A stretch of 64,000 bases of DNA from Mycobacterium heckeshornense. Lineage in GTDB: Bacteria > Actinomycetota > Actinomycetes > Mycobacteriales > Mycobacteriaceae. The stretch is taken from positions 1,736,001 through 1,800,000 of the forward strand of contig NZ_AP024237.1 of assembly GCF_016592155.1 (NCBI RefSeq), in the 5' to 3' direction. Every line of letters begins with the position of its first letter. The first letter of the stretch is position 1. The notes below the pieces were generated by a model. The model made no database searches and was not told the DNA's origin. It was given only the letters and a program-made list of their open reading frames with translations. Made by a program: the position numbers and the translations under genes. Positions 2,666 through 13,499 of this stretch are shown piece after piece.

Positions 2666-2690
2666 GTGCCCCCGGCAGGAATCGAACCTG
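2666..2690. repeat. attL, 25-bp copy of the tRNA-Arg 3' end
   Basis: Exact match to 13425-13449. It corresponds to the T-arm and acceptor 3' strand of the tRNA gene. The flanking bases differ (G before, T after, against A and C at the other copy). This is the displaced original 3' tRNA end. Confidence 0.9.
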
Positions 2691-2844
2691 TTCGGCGTGT
2701 CGGTGCGGCCAGTTTCTCTACCAGCGGTTTCTGTGCTGCTAGCTGCGTAGACAGCACTTTCACCGGTTGACAGTATAGGACACTGCCGGACACGTTGGTA
2801 CATTCTTGTTGTCTCGTATGTTGCACGGAGAGGATCGGGAGCCC

Positions 2845-3954
2845 GTGGCCAAGCAGCGCAGAACACGCCGCGGGTTCGGCCGGCTGCGCCGGCTGCCGAG
2901 TGGCCGCTGGCAGGCCGCCTACACCGGCCCGGACGGTCGCGTGCACAAGGCATCTCGAACGTTCGGCTCGAGGACCGACGCCGAAGGCTGGCTGGCCGCC
3001 GAGCGCCGCAAGATCGACCTGGGCACCTGGGGATCGGTGGAGCGCTCCGATGGCATCACCCTGCGCGCCTACGCCCAGCGGTGGATCGAGCAGCGCAACC
3101 TGCGCCCGCGCACCCGCCAGCTCTACGAGAGCATGCTTGATCGGTTGATCCTGCCCGAGCTGGGCGACGCCAAGCTGGCCGCGCTGACCCCGGCGACGGT
3201 GCGGGCCTGGCACGCCGGACTCGGCACCGAGCATTCGACCCGCAACGCGCACTGCTACGCGCTGCTGCACGCCATCTGCGTCACCGCCGTCCAGGACGAA
3301 GTGCTCGACGCCAACCCCTGCCGTATCCGCGCCGCGATGCAAACCAAACGCCGCCGCGACATCGACATCCTCACACCCGCCGAGTTGGACAAGCTCGCGG
3401 CGAAAATGCCTGCACCACTTCGCGCGTCGGTGTTGTTGGCCGCGTGGTGCGGTCTTAGGTGGGGCGAGACCTCCGAGCTACGCCGGCACGACATCGCCGA
3501 GGATTGCTCGGTGCTGCGCATTCGGCGCGCCGTCACCTACCGCAGCGGCAGCTTCTATGTTGGGGAGCCCAAGACCCGCGCCGGGGTACGAGATGTGGTG
3601 GTGCCGCCGCACATCCGGCCGGTCCTGAAGGCGCATCTACGCAAACATGTTGGCGCGCAACCCGATGCGCTCGTGTTCGCGGATGACGATGGTGGGCATC
3701 TGCGGTCGGACAAGTACCGGGTCCATTGGGAGAAGGCCCGCGCCGGGATCGGCAAACCCCGGTTGCGCGTGCACGACCTGCGTCACGTCGGCGCTGTTTT
3801 GGCCGCCCAAAGTGGCGCCACCACAGTCGAACTCATGCACCGCCTCGGTCACACAACCCCAGCGATGGCGCTGCGATATCAGCATGTCGCCGAGGGTCGC
3901 GACGCCGAAATCGCCGAGAGACTATCGGCTTTAGCTGCGGGCAAGCCGCGATGA
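2845..3954 (+). CDS. Tyrosine recombinase / phage integrase, phiRv2-like (Int1)
   Basis: 369 residues from GTG 2845, preceded by an AGGATCGGGAG ribosome site; the frame is open to a TTG at 2806. The N-terminal arm-binding domain (GFGRLRRLPSGRWQAAYTGP) resembles the phiRv2 integrase of M. tuberculosis. A SAM-like core-binding domain (about 75-155) follows. The catalytic domain has Arg in CGLRWGE, HDLRH, LGHTT and the tyrosine in RYQHVAEGRD. It lies 155 bp from attL and reads into the element, the usual position for the enzyme acting on this att site. It would integrate and excise the element by site-specific recombination. Its stop overlaps the next start (ATGA). Confidence 0.93.
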   Translation: MAKQRRTRRGFGRLRRLPSGRWQAAYTGPDGRVHKASRTFGSRTDAEGWLAAERRKIDLGTWGSVERSDGITLRAYAQRWIEQRNLRPRTRQLYESMLDRLILPELGDAKLAALTPATVRAWHAGLGTEHSTRNAHCYALLHAICVTAVQDEVLDANPCRIRAAMQTKRRRDIDILTPAELDKLAAKMPAPLRASVLLAAWCGLRWGETSELRRHDIAEDCSVLRIRRAVTYRSGSFYVGEPKTRAGVRDVVVPPHIRPVLKAHLRKHVGAQPDALVFADDDGGHLRSDKYRVHWEKARAGIGKPRLRVHDLRHVGAVLAAQSGATTVELMHRLGHTTPAMALRYQHVAEGRDAEIAERLSALAAGKPR

Positions 3955-4370
3955 CGTTCCAGGGCGAGCTTGTCCGGTTCCTGCGCCTTCTCGGAAAAGA
4001 GCCGACGTCGCGGCGAAAGTGGCGCGCCCTCGAAATCTACTGCGCGCGCTGCAATGACCTGGCGGCCGAGGTGTTCCGCGCGCCGACCGGCCCCGTTCCG
4101 CTGTTGGCCGTCTATCGCGGCCTGAAAACTCCCAATGTCGAGCCGGGAACGATACGGCCAATTGGGTTGCAAGGCAAAAGTATTCGTGACGACTACACCC
4201 ATGTTCTTCCGTTAGCTAGCGGACGGCAGGACGGTATCGAGCTGGCCTGCCGCTGCGGCAAACATGTGATCGCCGCGGCGGCCGTGATCCGCGCGGCGCG
4301 GCGACGCCGGCAGCGGCGACTCGTCGTCGCGCCGCGACACGCCGACGAGGACCACAGATTGTCACAGTAG
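3951..4370 (+). CDS. Element-encoded zinc-ribbon-like protein, unknown function
   Basis: 139 residues; ATG 3951 overlaps the integrase stop (ATGA), so it is coupled to int. Two cysteine pairs (YCARC near residue 27 and ACRCGKH near residue 101) could bind one zinc ion in a ribbon. The C-terminus is arginine-rich (AARRRRQRR), suggesting nucleic-acid binding. Similar small Cys proteins follow integrases in actinobacterial phages. No specific family is recognised. A longer ORF in this frame starts upstream but would overlap the integrase heavily. Confidence 0.7.
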   Translation: MTFQGELVRFLRLLGKEPTSRRKWRALEIYCARCNDLAAEVFRAPTGPVPLLAVYRGLKTPNVEPGTIRPIGLQGKSIRDDYTHVLPLASGRQDGIELACRCGKHVIAAAAVIRAARRRRQRRLVVAPRHADEDHRLSQ

Positions 4371-4477
4371 GTTGGCCTGTCGGTTAGGCTGGCATTCAAC
4401 GTCATCGGGCCTGCCCCGGAACGCTCGCGATTTTTTGATTGGGCGGCGAGCCGATCCCTGAGGAGGGACGGCAAACC

Positions 4478-4681
4478 ATGCCCAACAAACGACAGTCGCC
4501 GCCGCGTCTACTCGGCATTCCAGAGGCCGCTGCCTACTGCGGCGTTCATCCTCGCACTCTTCGGCGCTGGATCGCCGCCGGCCACATCCAGGCCCATCGT
4601 GTCGGTCCAAAGCTGTTGAAGATCCACGCCGCCGACCTCGACGCCTTCGTCGGCCGCGAGCCGGTCGGAGCCGCCCAATGA
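4478..4681 (+). CDS. Helix-turn-helix excisionase-like DNA-binding protein
   Basis: 67 residues from ATG 4478, which follows a strong GAGGAGGGACG ribosome site. The frame is open upstream to 4439, but the site selects 4478. A single winged HTH of the excisionase/MerR type fills the protein: LLGIPEAAAYCGVHPRTLRRWIAAG, then the wing IQAHRVGPKLLKIHAADLDAFV (quoted in parts). Its place just after the integrase suggests a recombination directionality factor, possibly also a regulator. Its stop overlaps the next start (ATGA). Confidence 0.8.
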   Translation: MPNKRQSPPRLLGIPEAAAYCGVHPRTLRRWIAAGHIQAHRVGPKLLKIHAADLDAFVGREPVGAAQ

Positions 4682-4935
4682 ACCGCGAAGGCCGGGCAAG
4701 GCCCGGCCTCCATGGTCACACAACAACGGTGACCAGTATACGCCGCCGCCAGGACGGCTATGCTGCGCCGGCCGCCGACGAACGCGCTGAGCAGCGGCTA
4801 CTGGCCGCCGCGCGCCGGTTCGGCTTCCGGCTGGCCGTTCAGTGTTTGGACTGTCGGCGCTGGCTGGTCGATCCAGCCAGTGTCGCGGCACATCGCGGCC
4901 CGGTCTGCCGTGCAAGGGCAGGTGACGGCCGATGA
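4678..4935 (+). CDS. DUF6011-like small zinc-motif protein
   Basis: 85 residues; ATG overlaps the previous stop (ATGA). The C-terminal segment CLDCRRWLVDPASVAAH, with a further Cys in GPVCRAR, matches the pattern of DUF6011, a small actinophage zinc-finger family, as I recall it. Function unknown. The N-terminal 25 residues are low-complexity, and a downstream start is possible. It is coupled to the DUF2742 gene that follows (ATGA overlap at 4932). Confidence 0.65.
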   Translation: MNREGRARPGLHGHTTTVTSIRRRQDGYAAPAADERAEQRLLAAARRFGFRLAVQCLDCRRWLVDPASVAAHRGPVCRARAGDGR

Positions 4936-5264
4936 CCGCGACACGCTTTGACTCCCGGCAGGTGAGTTGGTGGTCGGTTTACGAATACGTCGAGTCCCTT
5001 GTTGCCCAGGCGAATTGCGGTCCGGTCCCGCTGGCCGGCACATCAGCCTGGCTCACGCTGGCCGATGATGACCCGGCCAAGCTGCTGGCCGTCGCTGAAG
5101 CCGGCGTCCACTGGTGTTTGCGAATCGACGCGCTGCAAGCCGAGCTGGCCGAAGCATCGAAAGCTGTTTCAGCGGCAGCGGATTGGCGACACGTCGCCGC
5201 CGAGATCACCCAGCGCCGCGCCGCCGAGGCGACCGGTACACGAATCCCACGAAAGGCTTCCTGA
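4932..5264 (+). CDS. DUF2742 family protein (phiRv1/phiRv2-type)
   Basis: 110 residues; ATG overlaps the preceding stop. The core VSWWSVYEYVESL, PLAGTSAWLTL, DDPAKLLAVAEAG and SKAVSAAADWRHVAAEI aligns with remembered members encoded just before the replication gene in the phiRv elements of M. tuberculosis. Function is unknown. The conserved position directly upstream of the DUF3631 NTPase suggests a replication accessory role (inference). The stop TGA at 5262-5264 overlaps the next ATG at 5264. Confidence 0.8.
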   Translation: MTATRFDSRQVSWWSVYEYVESLVAQANCGPVPLAGTSAWLTLADDDPAKLLAVAEAGVHWCLRIDALQAELAEASKAVSAAADWRHVAAEITQRRAAEATGTRIPRKAS

Positions 5265-6985
5265 TGAGCGCACACTTAGACCCTGAGCTGGTCGAACGCG
5301 GACGGCAAATCATCGCAAGCGGCAAGCACGCGCCACGCGGCGACGTGGACCGCTCCGACGAACTGCACGACTGGTACGGCGAAGGCGAGCCGGAGAGCGG
5401 CGCGGAGCTGCTTGACGACATCGAATCGTTCGCCGCTCGATTCCTGGCGCTCCCAAGCGAACATCATCTTGTCGCGCTTAGTTTGTGGGCAGTGCACACG
5501 TGGGCCATCGAAGCGTTCTATACGACACCGCGGCTTGTGCTTGAGTCCCCGGAATGGGGTAGTGGCAAAACTCGGGTACTGGAAGTGCTCGAAAAACTGT
5601 GCTACGCGCCACGGCTGATCGTCTCGACATCTCCAGCAGCTTTGTATCGGCGCATCGACGCTGCCGGTGACCATCCTCCGACCGTTTTGCAAGACGAAGC
5701 CGACGCGATATTTGGCCGGGGAGCGAGCACGCAGGCCGAAGACTTGCGAGCGATCTACGACAACGGCTATCGACGTGGTGCCGTCGTTGACCGCTGCGTC
5801 GGGGACGCCAAAAACATGGACGTGCGTGATTTTCGCGTGTTTGCGCCAGCGGCGCTGGCCGGCTTGGAGGGCAAGATTCCCCGCACGGTCACCAGCCGCG
5901 CAATCGTCATGCACATGCGCCGCCGGTTACCTGACGAACGCCTCAGCGACTGGCGTGAAAGGGACGTCGAAATCGAAGCGCGGCCGCTGCGTGCGGGCAT
6001 TGCAGCATGGGTCGAGACCGCACTCGACGCGCTGGCGCAGGCCCGGCCCGGCATGCCGCCTGGCGTGCGCGACCGGCGTGCCGAGGTTTGGGAGCCATTG
6101 TTATCGGTCGCCGACGTGGCCGGAGCCGACTGGCCGGAGCGTGCGCGCGCCGCCTGCTCTTACTTCGAGTCCAATCCCGAGGATCGACTGTCGCTTGGTG
6201 CGCGGCTGCTCCGCGACATCCAGGACGTGTTCGGCAACCGGGAGCGCATGTTCACTGCCGACATCCTCACCGCGTTGACATCCGACGCCGAGTCCGAATG
6301 GTCCGACCTGTTCGGTAAACCGCTCAACGAGCGCCGGCTAGCAAAGGAATTGAAACGCTATGGCGTCGTCTCTGAGACCGTGCGTATTGGCGATGCGCGC
6401 GCCAAAGGGTACCGGGTCGAGGGTCAAACAGGGCTTGGGCAGGCGTGGTCACGCTGGCTGCCCGACGCTATCAAGCGTGACATCCGTGACAAGCGTGACA
6501 TTGCAGGTCAGCGCGTCACGGATAGAAATCCGATCCGTGACAAGCGTGACATCGGCACGGATGAGCGTGACATCCGTGACACAAGCGTGACATCGAAAAC
6601 ACCATCTGAGCAGCTGTTTTCCGAAAATGTCACGCTTGTCACGGATGTCACGCATACAAACGGAAAAGTTGGTGACGAGCGCTCGGATGACACCCAGCCG
6701 CCCGAGCCGGACACCACTCGGGCGGGTGATGCCACCGACCGCACCACCGACGACACCGAGCGGGTCCAGCAAACTACCGAGCGTCTTAACGGAACCCACC
6801 AGACAGCCGACCGAGAGGAGATGACTACGGTGCCAACGCCTAGCGCCGCCGAACCAGACGGCCACGCCGGGAAGCCGGCACGCCGCCTCTGCCCGTGCGG
6901 GCGGCCCGCGCCCATCAACCCTGAGACCGGGCTCTGCTACTGGTGCGAACGCAAGGCCGCCGCAGCCGAGCGGGAGGCGCGCTGA
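5264..6985 (+). CDS. DUF3631 P-loop NTPase, probable replication protein of the element
   Basis: 573 residues from ATG 5264 (TGATG overlap with DUF2742); the open frame runs back to 5114 over that gene. Walker A is ESPEWGSGKT (about 94-103) and Walker B is TVLQDEAD (about 145-152). The DUF3631 domain occupies about 270-400 (VRDRRAEVWEPLLSVADV..). A hydrophilic linker of about residues 404-545 includes RDIRDKRDI-type repeats, which reflect an iteron-like array in the DNA (6475-6653). The C-terminus carries a zinc-like motif (CPCG..CYWC). DUF3631 proteins in phages and islands act as primase-helicase-like replication factors. The in-gene repeats recall lambda O, where the origin lies inside the initiator gene. 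Confidence 0.82.
   Translation: MSAHLDPELVERGRQIIASGKHAPRGDVDRSDELHDWYGEGEPESGAELLDDIESFAARFLALPSEHHLVALSLWAVHTWAIEAFYTTPRLVLESPEWGSGKTRVLEVLEKLCYAPRLIVSTSPAALYRRIDAAGDHPPTVLQDEADAIFGRGASTQAEDLRAIYDNGYRRGAVVDRCVGDAKNMDVRDFRVFAPAALAGLEGKIPRTVTSRAIVMHMRRRLPDERLSDWRERDVEIEARPLRAGIAAWVETALDALAQARPGMPPGVRDRRAEVWEPLLSVADVAGADWPERARAACSYFESNPEDRLSLGARLLRDIQDVFGNRERMFTADILTALTSDAESEWSDLFGKPLNERRLAKELKRYGVVSETVRIGDARAKGYRVEGQTGLGQAWSRWLPDAIKRDIRDKRDIAGQRVTDRNPIRDKRDIGTDERDIRDTSVTSKTPSEQLFSENVTLVTDVTHTNGKVGDERSDDTQPPEPDTTRAGDATDRTTDDTERVQQTTERLNGTHQTADREEMTTVPTPSAAEPDGHAGKPARRLCPCGRPAPINPETGLCYWCERKAAAAEREAR
6475..6653. repeat. Iteron-like array, candidate replication origin of the element
   Basis: Twelve short units of the type GCGTGACAT or CCGTGACA. 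Forward GCGTGACAT copies start at 6475, 6493, 6544, 6565 and 6585; forward CCGTGACA at 6484, 6535 and 6574. Reverse units start at 6511, 6627, 6637 and 6645. The forward block 6475-6501 and the reverse block 6627-6653 form an exact 27-bp inverted repeat. The block 6565-6593 is the same with a 2-nt insertion. The spacer 6594-6626 is less GC-rich than its surroundings. The array lies inside the replication gene. Origin function is inferred. Confidence 0.75.
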
Positions 6986-7320
6986 TGGGCGCGTTGATCG
7001 ACCACGAGCGCTCGACGTGTTTATGCGACGTGGGCTTGCCCGGCTACTGGCTTGCCACGTGCGTCAAACCGGACGGCGACACAGTTCTGTGGCTGGTGGA
7101 TCGCGACGAGCTGGGCGGTGACAACCGCTGCTGCGGTTACGGCGACGACGTGGCCCACGAACAGCTCGGCCCGCTGCCGTTCGAGTACGCGCAGCGTATC
7201 GCGGCACTCGACCGGCGCCGCGGGTACCGCTGCGGGCGACGCACGCGGTCCGGCACCGTGTGCCGGATGCGGGTCACGCGGCCGGGCGACGCCTGCGAAT
7301 GGCACCGGGGCACGCCATGA
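6985..7320 (+). CDS. Element-encoded small protein with C-terminal Cys/His motif
   Basis: 111 residues from ATG 6985, overlapping the DUF3631 stop (TGATG). The C-terminus RCGRRTRSGTVCRMRV followed by GDACEWHRG has the spacing of a small zinc knuckle common in mycobacteriophage proteins. The central part is acidic and polar (VDRDELGGDNRCCGYGDD). No function is recognised. It is part of the tightly packed rightward operon; its stop overlaps the next start (ATGA). Confidence 0.65.
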   Translation: MGALIDHERSTCLCDVGLPGYWLATCVKPDGDTVLWLVDRDELGGDNRCCGYGDDVAHEQLGPLPFEYAQRIAALDRRRGYRCGRRTRSGTVCRMRVTRPGDACEWHRGTP

Positions 7321-7478
7321 CCGGCCAGCCTCCCCGCCCGCGCATCGTCCCGGCGACCGCTCGGCTCGACCCGCCGCGCCGGCAACCGCGTGCTCGGCGT
7401 ATCACCCGGCAGCGCCAAGCCGCCGCGTGGCGGCAAGCCGCAGCGGGCGGTCTCGGGAAACCTCGGCGGGCGCAATGA
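7317..7478 (+). CDS. Very small Arg-rich protein, unknown
   Basis: 53 residues; the ATGA overlaps on both sides support it as a coupled operon member. It is strongly basic (MTGQPPRPRIVPATARLD, then RRQPRARRITRQRQAAAW), which could bind nucleic acid. No family is recognised, and such short basic frames are common in GC-rich DNA, so confidence is moderate. Confidence 0.5.
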   Translation: MTGQPPRPRIVPATARLDPPRRQPRARRITRQRQAAAWRQAAAGGLGKPRRAQ

Positions 7479-7828
7479 CACTCGACGAGACCGACCTGCG
7501 CGCCGCGTATTTCTGCGTGGCCGAGGTAGTCCGTCGCCGCCGTTTATCTGGCCAGCCGATCCCGAGCTGGTTGCGCGGGCACTTCGACCGTCTTGACCGC
7601 GCCGTTCGCGCCGCAGCCGCGTCCACTTCGGGACATGAATCCGGTTGCGCCGAGCAAGAATTGCAGCAGCAATGGCTGACAGCCACACAGGCCGCGCAAG
7701 CGCTCGGTGTGTCCGCTCGGCATGTGCGGCGTCTGGCCGCCGACCTCGACGGCCAGCTCGTCGGCGGCCGCTGGCTGTTCTCGGCGGATGTGGTCGGTGA
7801 ATACGCAGAAGAAAGGCAACGGCGTTGA
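7475..7828 (+). CDS. Helix-turn-helix protein of the element
   Basis: 117 residues from ATG 7475 (ATGA overlap). The open frame continues upstream but overlaps two genes. N-terminal helical region: TDLRAAYFCVAEVVRRRRL. C-terminal HTH: WLTATQAAQALGVSARHVRRL, then GGRWLFSADVVGEYAEER, an excisionase/MerR-like winged helix (quoted in parts). It may be a transcriptional regulator or a packaging/replication accessory. No CI-like repressor was found in the element, so this is one of only two candidate regulators. Confidence 0.72.
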   Translation: MTLDETDLRAAYFCVAEVVRRRRLSGQPIPSWLRGHFDRLDRAVRAAAASTSGHESGCAEQELQQQWLTATQAAQALGVSARHVRRLAADLDGQLVGGRWLFSADVVGEYAEERQRR

Positions 7829-8064
7829 GCAGCACCGAAACCGAGTCCGAGCTGTGGCGAGCGGCGCTGGAGGAATACCTGGCGGGTCTTTCCAGCGTCG
7901 ACTTCGCTGCGCTTGCGGCGCGGGTCCGCCCGCCCGGCGACTTCGCCGGCGATGTCACGGCCCGTCACCGCCGCATCACGGAATCCTTGACGGCCAAAGC
8001 GGCGCAGCTTCGCAGCCTGCCACGCGACGCCGACGGCCCGCTAGCCCAGGGGAGGTCCAGGTGA
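7825..8064 (+). CDS. Small element protein, unknown (TTG start)
   Basis: 79 residues starting at TTG 7825, overlapping the previous stop (TTGA). Acidic and helical: ESELWRAALEEYLAGLSS then DFAALAARVRPPGDFAGDVT. No family is recognised. The stop overlaps the GTG of the coiled-coil gene (GTGA), so it sits in the same coupled operon. Confidence 0.6.
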   Translation: MSSTETESELWRAALEEYLAGLSSVDFAALAARVRPPGDFAGDVTARHRRITESLTAKAAQLRSLPRDADGPLAQGRSR

Positions 8065-8768
8065 CGAAATCGTCCTCGACACAAGACATTGCGGCACAAC
8101 TGGCAAAGGCCGAAGCCGAAGCCGCCAGGCTGCGCGAACACGCGGCGGCGATAGCCGAAGCCGAGCAGACCGCGCGCGACGCCACCGAATTGCGTTACTA
8201 CCGGGGCTTTTACGGCACCCAGCTCGACGGCTACCGCGAGCGCCGCGACGCGGCGATGGCGAAGCTCGATGAGCTGGCCGCCGCCGACCGGCTCGACCTG
8301 GCCGAAGCGGTCGCCGCGTTCGACGAACTACAGCGCCGTGACGCCCAAGCCGCTGCCGCCGCCGCCCACGCAGGCCGGCTCGACGGCATCGACCCGCTGC
8401 CGGACCGGCACAACGGCGCGCCGCGCACCCGGCCGCCGCGCGTGCAGCGACTCTACGCCGGACTGACATTCACCGCATGGCTCGACGGCGTGATCGCCGG
8501 ACGCGCACAGGCCGCCCACGACCGGCATTTGGCCGAGCTACAGGCCCAGGCAACCCGAGTGATCGACGAGGCAGCCGCGACGGCCCGCGAGCAAGCGGCG
8601 AACGGCGAGCCGGCCGCGACCGACACTCCGGCAAGCATCCGCGAGTTGGCCGAGCAGGCAGGCACCCCGGCCATCGACGAGCAGGCCGTCGCAGTCGCAG
8701 GCTTGCGCCGAGCCGAACTCAACGCCGAGCAGGCCAAGCTCGATCAGCTTGTGGCACAAGGCAACTGA
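8061..8768 (+). CDS. Coiled-coil element protein, unknown
   Basis: 235 residues from GTG 8061, with a GGGGAGG ribosome site and a GTGA overlap. Long Ala/Glu/Arg-rich helices with heptad character (AAQLAKAEAEAARLREHAA, ELQAQATRVIDEAAATAREQ) indicate coiled coils. A short aromatic stretch, RYYRGFYGTQLDGYRERRDAA, quoted in part, interrupts them. Similar proteins between replication and packaging genes in phage islands are uncharacterised. A scaffold-like or capsid-redirecting role would be speculation. Confidence 0.65.
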   Translation: MTKSSSTQDIAAQLAKAEAEAARLREHAAAIAEAEQTARDATELRYYRGFYGTQLDGYRERRDAAMAKLDELAAADRLDLAEAVAAFDELQRRDAQAAAAAAHAGRLDGIDPLPDRHNGAPRTRPPRVQRLYAGLTFTAWLDGVIAGRAQAAHDRHLAELQAQATRVIDEAAATAREQAANGEPAATDTPASIRELAEQAGTPAIDEQAVAVAGLRRAELNAEQAKLDQLVAQGN

Positions 8769-8784
8769 GCACGAAGGGAACCGC

Positions 8785-8967
8785 ATGCCGACACTCAGCT
8801 ACGGCAACCAGGCACCGATCACACTCACGGCCGCCGAGGCAACAACAGTCCTCGACGCGATGCGCGCCGCAACCGCCGACGGCGGCAACCAAGGCAGCGT
8901 CGTGACGGTCGCCGGCCTGACACTTCTGATCGGCCCCTCGACGCCAGTCGCCGTCACCACGACATGA
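8785..8967 (+). CDS. Small element protein, unknown
   Basis: 60 residues from ATG 8785 with an AGGGAA ribosome site. Sequence MPTLSYGNQAPITLTAAEA.. ends VAGLTLLIGPSTPVAVTTT. It looks like a compact beta-rich domain with one helix. No cysteines and no recognisable family. The stop overlaps the next ATG (ATGA). Confidence 0.6.
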   Translation: MPTLSYGNQAPITLTAAEATTVLDAMRAATADGGNQGSVVTVAGLTLLIGPSTPVAVTTT

Positions 8968-9209
8968 CCGGAGCGGAGCCGCCGCGCTTCCCGAGTTGCT
9001 GGGCGCGGCACGCGCCGAGCGGTCTGGCAGTCGGGTCCGGACCGCTCGGCGCACCCACCCAGGGGGTAACCCCCCGGCCGCGCCGCACAGACCGAAGCGC
9101 CTTAGCAGCTCAGCTTGTGCGTGCGGCCCGGCGAAACGCCGTTTTTGCCAGCTTGTCGCGGCAGCGCCGGGTTCCCCGGCTCATAGACCCTGACCAGGGA
9201 GGACGATGA
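8964..9209 (+). CDS. Possible small basic protein upstream of terS
   Basis: 81 residues; ATG overlaps the previous stop, and its own stop overlaps the terS ATG (ATGA), the pattern seen throughout this operon. Composition is Arg/Pro-rich (TPRPRRTDRSALAAQLVRAA, FASLSRQRRVPRLIDP), and two other frames here are also open, so coding status is uncertain. Only the coupling supports it. Confidence 0.42.
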   Translation: MTGAEPPRFPSCWARHAPSGLAVGSGPLGAPTQGVTPRPRRTDRSALAAQLVRAARRNAVFASLSRQRRVPRLIDPDQGGR

Positions 9210-9601
9210 GCATGCAGGCACCAAGACCACCGCGCGGGTTAGCTGCCGCGGGCCGCAAACTGTGGCGCGAAGTCGTTGCCGAAGCCACCGCCGAGGGCCT
9301 GGTTCTGACCGCGGTCGAGCGGTACTGGCTGGAGACGGCGGCCAAGCTGGTCGATCAGGCCGCAACCCTTGAGGCCGAGCTGGTCGGCGCACCGAAGATG
9401 GTGCGCGGGTCACAGGGCCAGGAGGTCATCAACCCGCTCATCTCCGAGCTGCGCCAGTTGCGACAGGCGGCGGACCGATCACTCGCCCGGCTGCGAATCG
9501 AGCCAGATGAATCGTCGAACGCCAACATCCGCGTGATCAGCACCAGCAGCACTCAGGCGCGTCGCGCGGCTCACACGCGCTGGCGCGGCGCGGGCGCATG
9601 A
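9206..9601 (+). CDS. Phage terminase small subunit, P27-like
   Basis: 131 residues from ATG 9206 with an AGGGAGG ribosome site. It matches the P27-type small-terminase layout: GLAAAGRKLWREVVAEATA, then LTAVERYWLETAAKLVDQAA, LEAELVGAPKMVRGSQGQ and NPLISELRQLRQAADRSLARL. Small terminases recognise the packaging site and recruit the large terminase motor. No large terminase is encoded in the element. A lone terS is typical of packaging-redirecting satellites, which use a helper phage TerL. Family assignment rests on remembered pattern. Confidence 0.72.
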   Translation: MSMQAPRPPRGLAAAGRKLWREVVAEATAEGLVLTAVERYWLETAAKLVDQAATLEAELVGAPKMVRGSQGQEVINPLISELRQLRQAADRSLARLRIEPDESSNANIRVISTSSTQARRAAHTRWRGAGA

Positions 9602-9858
9602 GGCGAATCGGCAGCACATCCGGCCTACGCGAGCTGCTGATCGCGGGGCATGAACCTTCGTGGCAGCGCTGGCGTATCCCCGGCCGGGCCTGCGACTTCG
9701 AACTCGACCTGAAAGCCGGCCGTCCGGTCGTGGTTTCCTCGGCGCAACTGCTGGCCGCGCTGATGCGCGCCGGCCTGCCTCACCGCGAGTTCGCGTTGGG
9801 CGGCCAGCATCACGGCGGCGCGTTCGTCCTGGACGAGCATGACCGGCTGGTCGAATAG
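9598..9858 (+). CDS. Element protein downstream of terS, unknown
   Basis: 86 residues, ATG overlapping the terS stop. Sequence RRIGSTSGLRELLIAGHEP, then FELDLKAGRPVVVSSAQLLAAL (quoted in part) and REFALGGQHHGGAFVLDEHD. No family is recognised. It is the last gene of the rightward operon; the next kilobase carries repeats and no clear gene. Confidence 0.6.
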   Translation: MRRIGSTSGLRELLIAGHEPSWQRWRIPGRACDFELDLKAGRPVVVSSAQLLAALMRAGLPHREFALGGQHHGGAFVLDEHDRLVE

Positions 9859-10075
9859 TCGCGGTCGATTCGGCCACTACCGCCGACCGATAGCTCGCTG
9901 CGGGAAGCTGAGCGTACGCAAGTTTGCGTTGTCCCAGGTTGCTGGCATCGACAACTTGGGTGACCTGCACAAGCCTTGAATCGACAGTGGTCGAGACGTT
10001 TGCTGGTAGGTGTACCAATCTGGAACCTGATCTTGAACCGACCGACCAGGACGCCATCGCCGGACAGCCGGTCGC

Positions 10076-10115
10076 GGCCGTCGCCAGCAACCACGGTGCT
10101 TAAGACCGTGGTTGC
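10076..10115. repeat. 40-bp hairpin direct repeat, copy 1
   Basis: Identical to 10701-10740. It contains an inverted repeat with arms GCCAGCAACCACGGT and ACCGTGGTTGCTGGC around GCTTAAG; in this copy the 15-bp arms extend to 10083-10119. Confidence 0.85.
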
Positions 10116-10260
10116 TGGCACCAACCACAACGTTGGCCGTTGTAGTTGCCGGTCGCGAAGCCGAGCAGATCAGCGCGGCCGCAAAAAAGCGCGAGCAGTC
10201 GCCGAACGGCACCGCTGGGAAGCTGAGCAGCGCCGCGTAAATAACGAAACGGTAACGGTA

Positions 10261-10302
10261 GATGTGGCAGATCTGCCACATCTGGGCGGTCATTTGACGG
10301 CG
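10261..10302. repeat. 22-bp palindrome plus flank, unit 1
   Basis: Perfect palindrome 10261-10282 (arm GATGTGGCAGA) followed by GGCGGTCATTTGACGGCGG. Repeated at 10438-10480 with arm GATGTGGCCGA and the same flank. Confidence 0.8.
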
Positions 10303-10437
10303 GTGCAGCGGGCGGCTATCGCGTGCGAGGCGCTGCCACTGCTCGAGGAGGAAGGCCGCCGCAAAAAAGCGCGAGCGGCAGCGGAGGAGCAACGTCGTCG
10401 CGCAGCCTTGCGCAACACGGAAAACAAGCTCAGTCAG

Positions 10438-10480
10438 GATGTGGCCGATCGGCCACATCCTGGCGGTCATTTGACGGCGG
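10438..10480. repeat. 22-bp palindrome plus flank, unit 2
   Basis: Perfect palindrome 10438-10459 (arm GATGTGGCCGA), then the same GGCGGTCATTTGACGGCGG flank as unit 1. Confidence 0.8.
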
Positions 10481-10528
10481 GGAAAGTGCGGCTATCGCCT
10501 TGGAGTCGCCACCCACCGACCCGGAATC

Positions 10529-10558
10529 CCCAGATGTGGCCGATCGGCCACATCTGGG
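10529..10558. repeat. 30-bp perfect palindrome, unit 3
   Basis: Arms CCCAGATGTGGCCGA; contains the same 22-bp core as unit 2 but lacks the GGCGGTCATTTGACG flank. Confidence 0.8.
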
Positions 10559-10700
10559 CAGCCGGGAGAAACCGAAACAACGCGCACCCAGGTCCAGTGA
10601 TATTACCGCGCGCGTGCGGCCTCCGCGACACGCCGCTCGTCCAGCGTGGCGAGCCACATTGTGAGCGTGCGCCGATCAATCATCAGCATTTCACGGGACC

Positions 10701-10740
10701 GGCCGTCGCCAGCAACCACGGTGCTTAAGACCGTGGTTGC
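10701..10740. repeat. 40-bp hairpin direct repeat, copy 2
   Basis: Exact second copy of 10076-10115. Here the right arm diverges after TTGC, leaving an 11-bp stem. The two copies bracket the palindrome-rich 585 bp between them. Confidence 0.85.
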
Positions 10741-10867
10741 CCATGACCTGCTGCGAAGCTTCTTGGCCTGACTGTCCGGATCGACACCCAGCGAATCGCA
10801 ACAGGGAGTCAGGATTACAGCCCTTCTCTGGTGACCCTCGGCGCGCCGGCACTGGCATGTGCGGTCA

Positions 10868-11203
10868 TCATGACCGCGCGTGAGCTACCCGGCCGTCGTC
10901 GGTGGCCGGGTAGGCAGTCTTGGTGGGTGGCCGGCCGACTTGCGCGAACGGCGCGCGCGCCGCGCGGTCGCGCGCGGCGCTGACGACTTTCTGCCAGCGG
11001 CTCCAGTCGGCGCGCGCAGCGAAGGGCTGTAGGGCTGGCGTGTCGGGCAGGCTGGTGTCCCGCCGTAGCGGCCAGCGCCGGCGTATCACCCCGGCCAGCA
11101 CCGAGCAGCCGGGTCGGTGACGCACGATGGCGATAGTCGAGTTGCCGTCACTGACCGGATCCGCCGAGGCGGCGCAGCGGGCGCAAGCGAAGAACTCCAC
11201 CAT
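10868..11203 (-). CDS. Element-encoded Cys/His protein, unknown
   Basis: About 111 residues from ATG 11203; GTG 11209 is an alternative start and no strong ribosome site separates them. The N-terminus FFACARCAASADPVSDGNST followed by HRPGC has a CxxC..H..C arrangement suggesting zinc. The rest is basic (RRRWPLRRD, RAARAPFAQVGRPP). Last gene of the leftward block; function unknown. Confidence 0.5.
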   Translation of the reverse strand: MVEFFACARCAASADPVSDGNSTIAIVRHRPGCSVLAGVIRRRWPLRRDTSLPDTPALQPFAARADWSRWQKVVSAARDRAARAPFAQVGRPPTKTAYPATDDGRVAHARS

Positions 11204-11260
11204 CGCCACTAGTGTGCAGCACGCCAGCGGCGCGCCGAGTCTGCCGCGACCTGGCCGTCG

Positions 11261-11560
11261 TTACGGGACCACATATCGCCAAGTGGTCGGTTCCCGGTTC
11301 AGGCATGCCGGCGGGTAGTCGCCGTAGATCCCTCGGTCGTCTCCGGCCATCACCCAGGCGTGCTGGCGGTCGGCGCGAGCGGCCAGCTCGGCGAGCTGCC
11401 GGCGCCGCGCATCGCGCGCGGCGCACATGTCGCGGTAGGCCCGTTTGAGCGTCCAGGCCATCAGCACGATGGCCGCCAGGCCGATGATCCACCAGATGAA
11501 GTGCGCGATGATTCCGACGAGCAGCAGCACGGCGAAAAGATGACCGAGGATTCCCGTCAT
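11261..11560 (-). CDS. Small membrane protein of the element
   Basis: 99 residues from ATG 11560, overlapping the stop of the upstream gene (ATGA on the minus strand). One long or two short membrane segments lie at residues about 4-40 (LGHLFAVLLLVGIIAHFIWW, IIGLAAIVLMAWTL). A basic cytoplasmic part follows (KRAYRDMCAARDARRRQLAEL). Small membrane proteins in integrated elements often affect host or superinfecting phage, but nothing specific supports that here. Confidence 0.65.
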   Translation of the reverse strand: MTGILGHLFAVLLLVGIIAHFIWWIIGLAAIVLMAWTLKRAYRDMCAARDARRRQLAELAARADRQHAWVMAGDDRGIYGDYPPACLNREPTTWRYVVP

Positions 11561-11802
11561 GGTGCTGAGTCCCACCGCTCCACGATGCGCCGGTAAGTGT
11601 CGTGGTCGATGTGGTCGTCGAGGTACTGGATCACCCGGTCCGGGCCGGGGTAGCCGGACAGGTCGTGCTCGCCGAGCAGGCCGGGGTATTCGGCCAGCAG
11701 GTCGTCGATGATGCGGCCGACATTCCACGTGTCGCGGCCGTCCCACGGCAGTGTGACCAGCACGTAGCGGATCAGGTCTTTACGGGTGACGGTTGCCCTC
11801 AT
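11557..11802 (-). CDS. Small acidic element protein, unknown
   Basis: 81 residues, MRATVTRKDLIRYVLVTLPW, then NVGRIIDDLLAEYPGLLGEHD and DRVIQYLDDHIDHDTYRRI (quoted in parts). It overlaps both neighbours by ATGA, so it is part of the leftward operon. Predominantly helical and acidic. No family is recognised. Confidence 0.65.
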   Translation of the reverse strand: MRATVTRKDLIRYVLVTLPWDGRDTWNVGRIIDDLLAEYPGLLGEHDLSGYPGPDRVIQYLDDHIDHDTYRRIVERWDSAP

Positions 11803-12122
11803 CGCGTACCTGCTTGTTCGGCGCGCAGGTCACCTTCAGCGCGAAGGTCGCCTTCGACGACGAACCGTAGCCGGTCGGCGTAGGTGATCGTGTCGGCGAT
11901 TTTCCCGGCCAGCTCGAACGCGCGCGTCGCGCGGGCACCGGATAGGTGTTCCTCGGCCCAGCGGGCGCGGGTCAAAGCGTCGCGCAGCAGATGGCGGCAC
12001 TCGTCGAGGCACTTGGCGGCTTCGGTGATCCCGCTGGCCGCGCCGGCGCGGGCTTCCTCGGCGCGGCGGCGTTCCTCGGCCAGCTCGGCGGGCGTCGCCT
12101 GCCGGTAGTCATCGCGGCCCAT
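11799..12122 (-). CDS. Helical element protein, unknown
   Basis: About 107 residues from ATG 12122; ATG 12134 is an alternative and the frame is open to 12197. Sequence GRDDYRQATPAELAEERRR.. then ITEAAKCLDECRHLLRDALT and ATRAFELAGKIADTITYADR (in part). Long amphipathic helices, likely coiled coil. It overlaps the end of the second recombinase gene by about 14 bp and is coupled downstream by ATGA. Confidence 0.6.
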   Translation of the reverse strand: MGRDDYRQATPAELAEERRRAEEARAGAASGITEAAKCLDECRHLLRDALTRARWAEEHLSGARATRAFELAGKIADTITYADRLRFVVEGDLRAEGDLRAEQAGTR

Positions 12123-13041
12123 CGGCGGCTCCATCGTCGTGTTGGGCGCGCGCACCGCCCGCGGCCAGCCGGTTGATCGCTTCCGTGCGCCGAGCATCCG
12201 ACACCTGAGTGTAAATGGCGGTGGTGTTCAAATTGGCGTGCCGCAGCAGGGTTTGCGCGGTGCGCAGATCGGTGCCGTCGCTGACCAGCTTGGTTCCGTA
12301 CCAGTGACGCAGCCTATGTGCGGTGCCGCCTGGAATGCCGGCGCGATCCATTGCCTGCCCGATGATGTCGGCGACGCCGCGTGGCCGGATCGGCTGCCCG
12401 CGCCGGCGCGCGTTGCCCGGAAACCACCAACCGCGCCGGGGCATCGTCTCGGCGGCCTCAACCAGCAGCGGATGCAGCGGCAGTATCGCGGTCACGTTGC
12501 CCTTGCCGGTCACCCGCAGGGTGCGCGCCTGGGGGTCAACGTCCTCGCCGCGTATTTTGGCGATTTCATGCACCCGCAAGCCCGCGAACGCCGCCAACAG
12601 GATCATCACACGGGTGCGGTGATGCATGCGCACCGCGAGCAGGTTTTGCAACTGCTCATCGGTGATCGGCCGGGGTACGCCTTTGGAGGCCTTCGGGCGT
12701 GGTAGCTGCGCTGCGGCATTCGTGCCGCCGTTTTGCCCCAACCAGCGGTAGAAGCTGTGAATGTAGCCGTAGTAGGCGGCGCGGCTGTTGGGCTTCAAAT
12801 TGGGCCGGCCAAGGAACCGGGCGATGTCAAGGGGCCGCACCGACTCCACGCCCACCCCGGCGAATTTCTCCAACCGGCGCAACACACCCAGGGTTTCGTT
12901 GATCGTGCGGTTGGAGCGGCCCGCGCCGCGCATGTACAGCTCCCAGCGCTCCAATGCGCTCAGCTCGCCATCGTCATCGCCGGAACCGGCGGCGGGCACC
13001 ACCAACGCCAAATGCCGGTGGCGGTGTCGGGCCGCGCTCAT
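12109..13041 (-). CDS. Second tyrosine recombinase of the element (Int2, XerC/D-like)
   Basis: 310 residues from ATG 13041, overlapping the upstream stop (ATGA). The frame is open to 13224, but that part lies over the neighbouring gene. N-terminal core-binding SAM-like domain: about 28-115 (ERWELYMRGAGRSNRTINETL in part; YYGYIHSFYRWL). Catalytic domain: Arg in GLRVHEIAKIRGEDV, HRLRHWYGT, LLRHANLNTTAIYTQV with the nucleophilic Tyr. All catalytic residues are present. Unlike Int1 it lacks an AP2-like arm-binding domain and resembles XerC/D-type enzymes. It may resolve multimers, act at the repeats at 10.1-10.7 kb, or be the integrase of a formerly separate element. Confidence 0.88.
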   Translation of the reverse strand: MSAARHRHRHLALVVPAAGSGDDDGELSALERWELYMRGAGRSNRTINETLGVLRRLEKFAGVGVESVRPLDIARFLGRPNLKPNSRAAYYGYIHSFYRWLGQNGGTNAAAQLPRPKASKGVPRPITDEQLQNLLAVRMHHRTRVMILLAAFAGLRVHEIAKIRGEDVDPQARTLRVTGKGNVTAILPLHPLLVEAAETMPRRGWWFPGNARRRGQPIRPRGVADIIGQAMDRAGIPGGTAHRLRHWYGTKLVSDGTDLRTAQTLLRHANLNTTAIYTQVSDARRTEAINRLAAGGARAQHDDGAADGPR

Positions 13042-13340
13042 AGCCGCACCAACCGTACTGCGGTGGCCAGGTCGTCGAACACGCACCCGCAATGCGCGCA
13101 GCGCGCCGGGCCCGTGTAAAACTGCGCCCGAGTCTGCCGCAGCCACGCGGCCTTGTGCTGCCCGCACATCAGCACCGCCTCGCAGCCGTGCAGGTTCACC
13201 CGCCAGCCGGCCGGCCGGCGGCATCGCCGACCCTCACCGGCGGCGGGCATCTCACAACCCGGCGGGCAATCGAACATAGACACCACCGCCTCCAACCCGT
13301 CACCGGCCCGGCACAACTGGCGGTAGGACCCAATGGACAT
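13038..13340 (-). CDS. Cys-rich putative zinc-binding protein upstream of Int2
   Basis: 100 residues from ATG 13340 with a GGGAG ribosome site. Cysteine clusters MFDCPPGCEMP, GRRCRRPA, MCGQH and ARCAHCGCVFD suggest two zinc sites. It is the first gene of the leftward operon and begins 84 bp from attR, so the operon promoter must lie within that short stretch or in the tRNA region. Function unknown. Confidence 0.65.
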   Translation of the reverse strand: MSIGSYRQLCRAGDGLEAVVSMFDCPPGCEMPAAGEGRRCRRPAGWRVNLHGCEAVLMCGQHKAAWLRQTRAQFYTGPARCAHCGCVFDDLATAVRLVRL

Positions 13341-13424
13341 GTGGCTCCCATCTGTTTGTGAGCCACACCGAAGAAGCCTAGTTGCACGAATCTTGCGCGA
13401 CGGTCTATCTGCGCTGGTCAGATA

Positions 13425-13449
13425 GTGCCCCCGGCAGGAATCGAACCTG
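13425..13449. repeat. attR, 25-bp core inside tRNA-Arg
   Basis: Exact copy of 2666-2690. Here it forms the 3' end of the intact tRNA gene, so integration restored a functional tRNA at the right end. Confidence 0.9.
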
Positions 13450-13499
13450 CGACCTAGGGATTAGAAGGCCCTTGCTCTATCCAACTGAGCTACGGAGGC
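13426..13499 (-). tRNA. tRNA-Arg (anticodon TCT)
   Basis: 74 nt on the minus strand, no encoded CCA. Acceptor GCCTCCG pairs with CGGGGGC (one G-T pair), discriminator A. D-stem GCTC/GAGC, anticodon loop CTTCTAA, T-stem GCAGG/CCTGC with TTCGAAT. It reads the codon AGA, rare in this GC-rich genome. It is the integration target: its 3' 24-25 nt recur at 2666-2690. Confidence 0.95.

Follow-up and report, generated by a model that had tools for sequence, protein, structure and literature searches.

How could a phage package and transfer a small chromosomal island whose only recognisable terminase component is a small subunit (TerS)? This question is raised by E1, an island at the left end of a 64,000-nucleotide stretch of the Mycobacterium heckeshornense chromosome (contig NZ_AP024237.1, positions 1,736,001 to 1,800,000; referred to below as the window, with positions counted from its first letter). 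A preliminary description of this DNA had taken E1 for a phage satellite resembling the phage-inducible chromosomal islands (PICIs). This is the best-supported reading, and it is strengthened because a site resembling a phage cohesive-end (cos) site, absent from that description, has been found upstream of the TerS gene. Judging from its gene content and packaging signals, E1 is probably a PICI-type phage satellite that integrates into the chromosome and lacks capsid genes.

A candidate cos site upstream of TerS

The packaging module of E1 comprises the following features (HTH, helix-turn-helix; pLDDT, predicted local distance difference test; pTM, predicted template modelling score; L152 to L154 are islands of other species):

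7475..7828, + strand: the second HTH_17 protein of E1, with which the packaging module opens (PF12728); matches in L152-L154
7825..8064, + strand: small protein, 85.5% to its E2 counterpart
8061..8768, + strand: p8061, helical; matches in L152, L153 and L154; model pLDDT 75, pTM 0.46
8749..8967, + strand: small protein, identical in E2
9063..9125, + strand: putative cos site (core GCCTT|AGC, 9099-9106), with some 100 bp between core and TerS, which lies 3' of it; match to the Bernal13 end junction
9206..9601, + strand: TerS, small terminase subunit, P27 family (PF05119, phrog_1496; 46% to Bernal13 TerS)
9598..9858, + strand: p9598, overlapping the TerS stop; model pLDDT 89

The TerS protein matches PF05119 at 24.9 bits (cut-off 24.7) and phrog_1496 at 2e-14, and its closest phage relatives are those of Bernal13 (46%) and Mendokysei (44%), phages with genomes of 42.4 and 43.5 kb. 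Both records start shortly before terS, and we take them to begin and end at cohesive ends. A query in which 50 bases from each end of Bernal13 were joined was used in a local search of E1, with dinucleotide shuffles (n=300) as a control. It scored 53 at 9063-9125, across the junction, with 49 of 62 aligned bases identical, against a maximum of 32 in the shuffles and at most 27 in three further islands of the same genome (E3-E5) and three other stretches of the window. The match ends about 80 bp 5' of TerS. The query was also run over 44 loci from a survey of 297 genomes of the genus, a subset of the places listed by that survey (20 mostly with DUF3631, 20 mostly with TerS or DUF3631, a few of which overlap or neighbour the first set, and four from the E1 genome itself). 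The six top scores (L153, E2, L154, L152, L155 and L157) all lay 5' of TerS on the same strand, at a distance of 79-85 bp in the putative satellites L153, E2, L154 and L152, and of about 215-220 bp in the prophages L155 and L157. The remaining 38 loci scored no more than 32, with no match just 5' of TerS on its strand; in L160, a weak match (28) lies beside TerS on the opposite strand. A prophage region in genome G223, known by its TerS and large terminase subunit (TerL), has a match scoring 44 about 0.5 kb 5' of TerS. The core GCC[AT]T|AGC is conserved in all nine aligned rows, those of E1 and E2 being alike. Used as a DNA query against the 297 genomes, the 131-bp cos region gave strong matches in E1 and E2 only (best other E value 1e-4). 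No cos score stood out in E5, although its TerS is Mendokysei/Bernal13-like (38-40%), and the site could not be searched for in E4, because the phage match of its TerS (phrog_1459) is doubtful (E 0.4).

The small protein p9598 (86 aa), which is 99% identical to a M. heckeshornense protein, occupies, after TerS, the place that TerL has in Bernal13, and it does so in seven islands (E1, E2, L151, L152, L153, L154 and L162). Neither p9598 nor p8061 has a match among 50,697 phage records. The p9598 model has no credible fold match in PDB, VIA-align or BFVD, which is not evidence for a new fold, and the p8061 model gave only generic helical matches in BFVD, the one database searched with it. Our guess is that these two proteins are candidates for head-size redirection or for adaptation between TerS and TerL, and p9598 might, equally speculatively, be the TerS-TerL adaptor.

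Several results weigh against the cos site and the satellite reading. The left-end half of the Bernal13 query alone scores 18, elsewhere in E1, whereas the right-end half alone reaches 40, as does a wrong-order join of the Bernal13 ends; when the Enceladus ends are joined in the wrong order, the score is 41, from G/C runs on the other strand of E1, and the Mendokysei end query scores 28, equal to the 95th percentile of the shuffles. The scores of prophages L155 and L157 (38 and 36) are not far above the 32 reached among the other 38 loci, no cos match is present in L151 and L162, islands with both TerS and p9598, and the exact cos pattern has no match among the IMG/VR viral contigs. The NCBIfam P27 model TIGR01558 scores 20.2 on TerS, below its cut-off of 45.6. 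The p9598 profile finds no relative in IMG/VR, no function is known for p8061 or p9598, no attachment (att) pair was found in L152, and the satellite behaviour of E1 is a prediction from its sequence. By itself, the E1 match is a moderate indication of a cos site; given the results with half queries, wrong-order joins and Mendokysei, the case for this site rests more on its position and its recurrence in four lineages than on E1 taken singly.

Boundaries and mobility genes

E1 lies in a tRNA-Arg(TCT) gene and measures 10,759 bp between its att copies. Its left part carries the genes for integration and, further in, those for replication:

2666..2690, + strand: attL, copy of the tRNA-Arg 3' end, exact 25-bp direct repeat
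2806..3954, + strand: tyrosine integrase (PF00589 3e-13, PF14659, phrog_1 2e-63; R-K-HxxR-H-Y residues seen by eye)
3951..4370, + strand: protein overlapping the integrase stop; no family matched (Pfam, PADLOC, NCBIfam)
4478..4681, + strand: excisionase, HTH_17 (PF12728 3e-12; NCBIfam TIGR01764 'excise', 46.5 bits, cut-off 28.8)
4678..4935, + strand: DUF6011 small protein (PF19474)
4932..5264, + strand: DUF2742 protein (PF10888 3e-31), with counterparts in E3 and a number of further DUF3631 islands
5264..6985, + strand: DUF3631 replication NTPase (PF12307 1e-52)
6477..6651, + strand: in-gene iterons, candidate origin, 8 GTGACA and 3 inverted copies
6979..7320, + strand: small protein, common to E3, G251 and other islands
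13425..13449, + strand: attR, within tRNA-Arg(TCT), exact 25-bp direct repeat
13425..13499, - strand: tRNA-Arg(TCT), integration site (ARAGORN); the right att copy is the 3' end of the tRNA

The 25-bp repeats in a tRNA 3' end, as originally described, are exact copies, the right one inside the tRNA gene. An empty site is found in genome G094, in which 36 bp separate the tRNA-Arg gene from the matched part of an enoyl-CoA hydratase gene, the same gene that is the left neighbour of E1 in the window. A clean junction of this kind was seen in G094 only, one of the six loci compared. In G001 and G012 the left genes are present, at about 5.5 kb and about 3.2 kb from the tRNA, and the left neighbour was not seen in the stretches taken from G006, G009, G010 and G004.

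E1 was annotated by scanning 20 open reading frames (ORFs) against Pfam and PHROGs, with 10 proteins compared with NCBIfam and 10 with PADLOC. These scans and a repeat search confirmed each member of the gene set first proposed (integrase, excisionase-like HTH protein, replication NTPase with in-gene iterons, small terminase). None of the 20 ORFs matched a capsid, portal, protease, lysis or large-terminase family in Pfam or PHROGs, so that the structural, lysis and TerL genes said to be missing from E1, including the capsid, portal or TerL homologues that would have spoken against a satellite, did not come to light. The only structural label is a weak 'tail fiber' match of the protein encoded at 13038-13340 (phrog_2857, 2e-6), and both HTH proteins carry weak small-terminase labels (PHROGs, E 0.005 or worse). 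E1 therefore has the sequence features by which PICIs are recognised: it sits between att copies at a specific site and encodes both an integrase and an excisionase, it has its own replication protein with a putative origin (the NTPase and its iterons) and a packaging cue, here apparently both a TerS and a cos-like site, and it lacks genes for a TerL, a portal or a tail, apart from the weak 'tail fiber' label.

Related islands in the same genome

The host genome (one contig, 4.96 Mb) contains four more islands of related make-up. E2 (L031) lies in tRNA-Val(GAC) between exact 33-bp att copies (10,613 bp); it has a D5-type primase and an integrase with 43% identity to that of E1, and it shares window positions 7416-10062 with E1 at 97.1% and 10837-13365 at 99.6%. 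E3 (L034) interrupts a DUF222/HNH gene; it carries a serine integrase and the sole HK97 (PF05065) capsid match of the genome, and it has 1,660 bp of the replication region (window 5144-6792) in common with E1 at 97.5%, together with a relative of the E1 right-end protein R81 (141 bits). We call E3 phiRv1-like from its serine integrase, its DUF222/HNH insertion and its capsid rather than from a comparison with M. tuberculosis sequences; the target gene is presumably of the 13E12 type. E3 extends over about 7.1-16.0 kb of its locus (G000:C1:3346000-3365999), and a tRNA-Gly gene is predicted inside it at 11681-11755. E4 (L035) lies in tRNA-Val(TAC) between 50-bp att copies with one mismatch (11,506 bp) and has another replicase and another TerS (phrog_1459). 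E5 (L032, 4364-16788) lies in tRNA-Pro(GGG) between exact 43-bp att copies (12,382 bp) and encodes a D5-like primase and a P27 TerS, with apparent insertion-sequence transposases alongside, and it seems to have been interrupted by insertion sequences. No DNA match with E1 was found in E5 in the whole-genome search; of the 33 matches listed there, all fall within E1-E4 except for those in a single tRNA copy.

The right-end module and its palindromes are common to E1-E4 in varying combinations. A second, leftward module with its own recombinase is indeed present in E1, as had been noticed, whereas its supposed value as a difference from the phiRv elements is lost, since E3 encodes a relative of R81; judged by these matches, the leftward module is a feature shared by the family. 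The leftward recombinase was considered, and rejected, as the enzyme that chooses the tRNA site: it is 99.7% identical in E1 and E2, yet the two islands occupy different tRNA genes, and it is their left integrases that differ. Eight of the nine loci whose best integrase match is of the E2 type sit in tRNA-Val(GAC) (no att pair was found in L054), and the choice of tRNA is not strictly tied to integrase type, as L048, with an E1-type integrase, sits in tRNA-Pro. The genome has 57 integrase-family matches in all, many of them identically scored in groups of neighbours (e.g. G000:C1:1373943, 2752232, 2950832), as though an element carrying several tyrosine recombinases had been amplified here to multiple copies.

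Relatives in other mycobacterial genomes

DUF3631 occurs in 58 of the 297 genomes, and matches to E1 TerS in at least 65 of them, a lower bound because a prefilter limited the candidates scored. A search for the same island in other mycobacteria had been suggested, and the cos-TerS arrangement recurs in three islands of other species without a recognised capsid gene: L152 (G024), L153 (G152) and L154 (G128), which have an integrase and the gene order HTH-p8061-TerS-p9598. No capsid or TerL match was found in them with the few capsid seeds used, and genomes G152 and G128 lack any HK97 (PF05065) capsid match and any Bernal13-type TerL. Their att-bounded sizes are 10,254 bp (L153) and 10,706 bp (L154). 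L151 and L162 have TerS and p9598 only. An island in G251 combines a right module 93% identical to that of E1 with a middle module of the E4 type; L039 (10,918 bp) has p8061 and no TerS match, and E4-type islands measure 10,628-11,506 bp.

A capsid gene was recognised in 11 of 25 DUF3631-anchored islands (E1 and E3 counted); the lack of a match in the others is not proof of absence, because the capsid seeds were few. E1 might instead descend from a capsid-carrying satellite of the phiRv type that became immobile on losing its capsid gene, a history suggested by the capsid gene and shared replication region of E3 and by islands that hold both TerS and capsid, such as L055 of M. persicum. We regard it as unlikely: HTH-p8061-cos-TerS-p9598 is a different module and not a truncated capsid module, and it recurs in L152-L154 with no capsid match.

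Neither did the relatives of E1 among these loci prove to be full prophages from which it had decayed; they are small islands, a few of which encode a capsid. L155 and L157, the sole fuller prophages among the loci, are Bernal13-like, with the order TerS-TerL-portal-protease-scaffold-capsid that E1 lacks, and they have the cos site and TerS, and not the rest, in common with E1. The phage-like cos site and TerS of E1, and the presence of Bernal13-like prophages in the genus (a Bernal13-type TerL at 66-69% identity in three of the 297 genomes, any match in 24), would suit a descent of E1 from a Bernalvirus-like prophage in which the structural genes were lost while cos and TerS were kept. This is slightly less probable still, as the same reduced layout is found in four genomes, at 10.25-10.76 kb in the three whose ends were found; moreover, p8061 and p9598 are unmatched in phage records, the NTPase matches two Pseudomonas phages only, and the islands exchange modules, with the right halves of E1 and E2 nearly identical.

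Replication NTPase and iterons

Eleven GTGACA/TGTCAC copies lie close to the 3' end of the DUF3631 NTPase gene, and would form the origin. In an alignment of 16 sequences, G74 and K75 of the GSGK stretch are invariant. Among seven other replication genes examined, iterons occur at the same positions in E3 and L037 and at similar spacing in L049 and L053, whereas the DUF3631 gene of L055 has none, and the unrelated primases of E2 and E4 have no iteron cluster. The GTGACA iterons (6477-6651 in E1; L037, L049, L053) hold a similar spacing in different species, down to 63-65% protein identity.

Relatives of the NTPase (L057-L136) are found in Streptomyces, Amycolatopsis, Pseudonocardia, Corynebacterium and other bacteria. 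Such NTPases are widespread in Streptomyces and its relatives, which could suggest that E1 is an actinomycete integrative and conjugative element or an integrative and mobilisable element (AICE/IME) moved by conjugation, with an incidental TerS. We consider this very unlikely, because the FtsK/Tra translocases and relaxases typical of such elements, and coupling-protein families, were not found in the 20 ORFs (Pfam/PHROGs) or the 10 proteins compared with NCBIfam, and a cos site and TerS would have no role. Least likely of all is an immobile anti-phage island using TerS and p9598 as decoys to block helper packaging: satellites often interfere with their helpers, according to the part of the literature used here (PMC5052747), and p9598 holds the TerL position, but no PADLOC model matched the 10 E1 proteins scanned (TerS, p8061 and p9598 not among them), E1 appears to have an intact integrase, excisionase and pair of att sites, and a cos site would be unnecessary.

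Helper and packaging

If E1 is a PICI-type satellite, it needs a helper, and the resident prophage with a P27-compatible TerL that the preliminary description proposed to look for was not found. In the host genome the best PF03354 (Terminase_1) TerL match reaches 11.3 bits, below the cut-off, and neither a PF04860 portal nor a Bernal13-type TerL came to light, these being the terminase and portal families searched for. Since no resident helper was found, the helper would most likely come from outside the host genome. Candidate helpers in the genus include the Bernal13-like prophage regions L155, L157 and L197, in three mycobacterial genomes; the Bernal13 phage group itself can be grown on M. 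smegmatis mc2 155, a laboratory host.

Infection by a Bernal13-like phage (Bernalvirus, presumably cluster T) would induce E1, the left integrase and the excisionase would excise it, and the NTPase, starting at the iterons, would copy it into concatemers. Binding of the satellite cos site by the satellite TerS may then recruit the helper TerL, so that satellite DNA cut at cos would fill helper heads; the packaged form may be a concatemer of four units or else a monomer in a small head. Lengths of 10,254-10,759 bp are found for the cos-TerS islands whose ends are known, and four units would amount to 41.0-43.0 kb, compared with phage genomes of 42.4-43.5 kb; this arithmetic covers four islands (E1, E2, L153, L154), of which E1 and E2 are not independent, and leaves out L039, the E4-type islands and E5. 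The agreement would suit concatemers in full heads, and it could possibly be due to chance.

More broadly, and more tentatively, these islands may form a modular pool of mycobacterial satellites; replication and right-end modules would be swapped in one cell between members that form capsids (phiRv-like) and members that do not, the capsid-less branch packing its DNA by means of its own cos site, a cognate TerS and p9598 as an adaptor in place of TerL, as four-unit concatemers in Bernalvirus-type heads.

Comparison with known satellites

Candidate mycobacterial PICIs, including phiRv1 and phiRv2, have already been published, on the criterion of an integrase and a major capsid gene in one region, and phage induction of particular mycobacterial PICIs had not yet been demonstrated at the time of that 2023 survey, according to the section concerned (PMC10654092). 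Like E1, these are small islands with a tyrosine integrase at a tRNA or a serine integrase elsewhere, replication genes and, in some, a terminase, and the phiRv1-like E3 shares replication and right-end modules with E1. E3 has the integrase and capsid on which the survey relies, whereas E1, E2 and L152-L154 fall outside its definition because they have no capsid match, and the section mentions no cos site; E1-like islands may have been counted among its 'integrated elements' or 'phage-related regions' (PMC10654092).

The packaging routes described in the parts of the satellite literature compared are an own TerS with a pac site, a helper cos site without a whole TerS, a protein binding the helper TerS together with cos, and the full set of the capsid-forming PICIs (cf-PICIs); an own cos site with an own TerS and no TerL is not among them (PMC5052747, PMC6092414, PMC10690885). 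The cos-type islands of Staphylococcus aureus (SaPIs; SaPIbov4/5) and EcCICFT073 resemble E1 in having a helper cos site, the units between cos sites being packed by the helper terminase; the SaPIbov5 type has only the 3' part of terS beside the phage cos site and EcCICFT073 has no TerS, whereas E1 has a cos-like site and a whole TerS, the likeness to these islands being drawn from their descriptions (PMC5052747, PMC6092414). Pac-type SaPIs likewise have no TerL and an own TerS expected to recruit the helper TerL, but their packaging is of the headful kind and relies on a pac site, whereas the E1 site resembles phage genome ends (PMC5052747, PMC6092414). The cf-PICIs are satellites with an integrase and packaging genes, as is E1, and theirs include a capsid, a protease, a portal, connectors and the two subunits of the terminase, where E1 has TerS and neither capsid, portal nor TerL (PMC10690885). 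PICMIs also have no capsid gene, and their concatemer in a full-size head offers a model for the four-unit idea; in the excerpts used, PICMI115 is described as having no terS homologue, with packaging that looks headful and with other genes and another host group, whereas E1 has TerS (PMC10803314). No capsid-less mycobacterial example was evident in the titles and abstract openings returned by the literature searches.

A cis site, a cognate TerS and a named phage group together point to one helper family, and make the induction of a mycobacterial PICI directly testable. Such islands would represent a class of satellites missed by capsid-based searches, and the exchange of modules between capsid-forming and capsid-less islands is captured here inside one genome.

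The right-end module and the palindromes

The remaining features of E1 are as follows:

10083..10740, no strand: palindrome array; hairpin repeat x2, GATGTGGC-type palindromes x3
10868..11209, - strand: R113, right-end module protein (E2, E4, G251)
11261..11560, - strand: R99, membrane protein, phage family of unknown function (phrog_6131 8e-19)
11557..11802, - strand: R81, right-end module protein (E2, E3, G251)
11799..12197, - strand: R132, right-end module protein (E2, G251, G083)
12109..13041, - strand: second tyrosine recombinase, mycophage type (PF00589 4e-24; 49.5% to phage Rem711)
13038..13340, - strand: R100, right-end module protein, 100 aa (phrog_2857 2e-6; E2, G251)

E1 has six perfect palindromes with arms of at least 10, compared with three in the 50.6 kb to its right, and the matches to its palindrome array elsewhere in the genome, among the matches listed, lie in islands E2-E4 or in tRNA copies. 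We can only guess at their nature: they resemble operators or the sites of a recombinase, or else mobile palindromes in decayed ParB-like coding sequence. In the palindrome families of E1-E4, the inner letters change on both arms together, as in GATGTGGC[AC]GATC[TG]GCCACATC, and one hairpin of these families has its 7-bp spacer inverted in E3.

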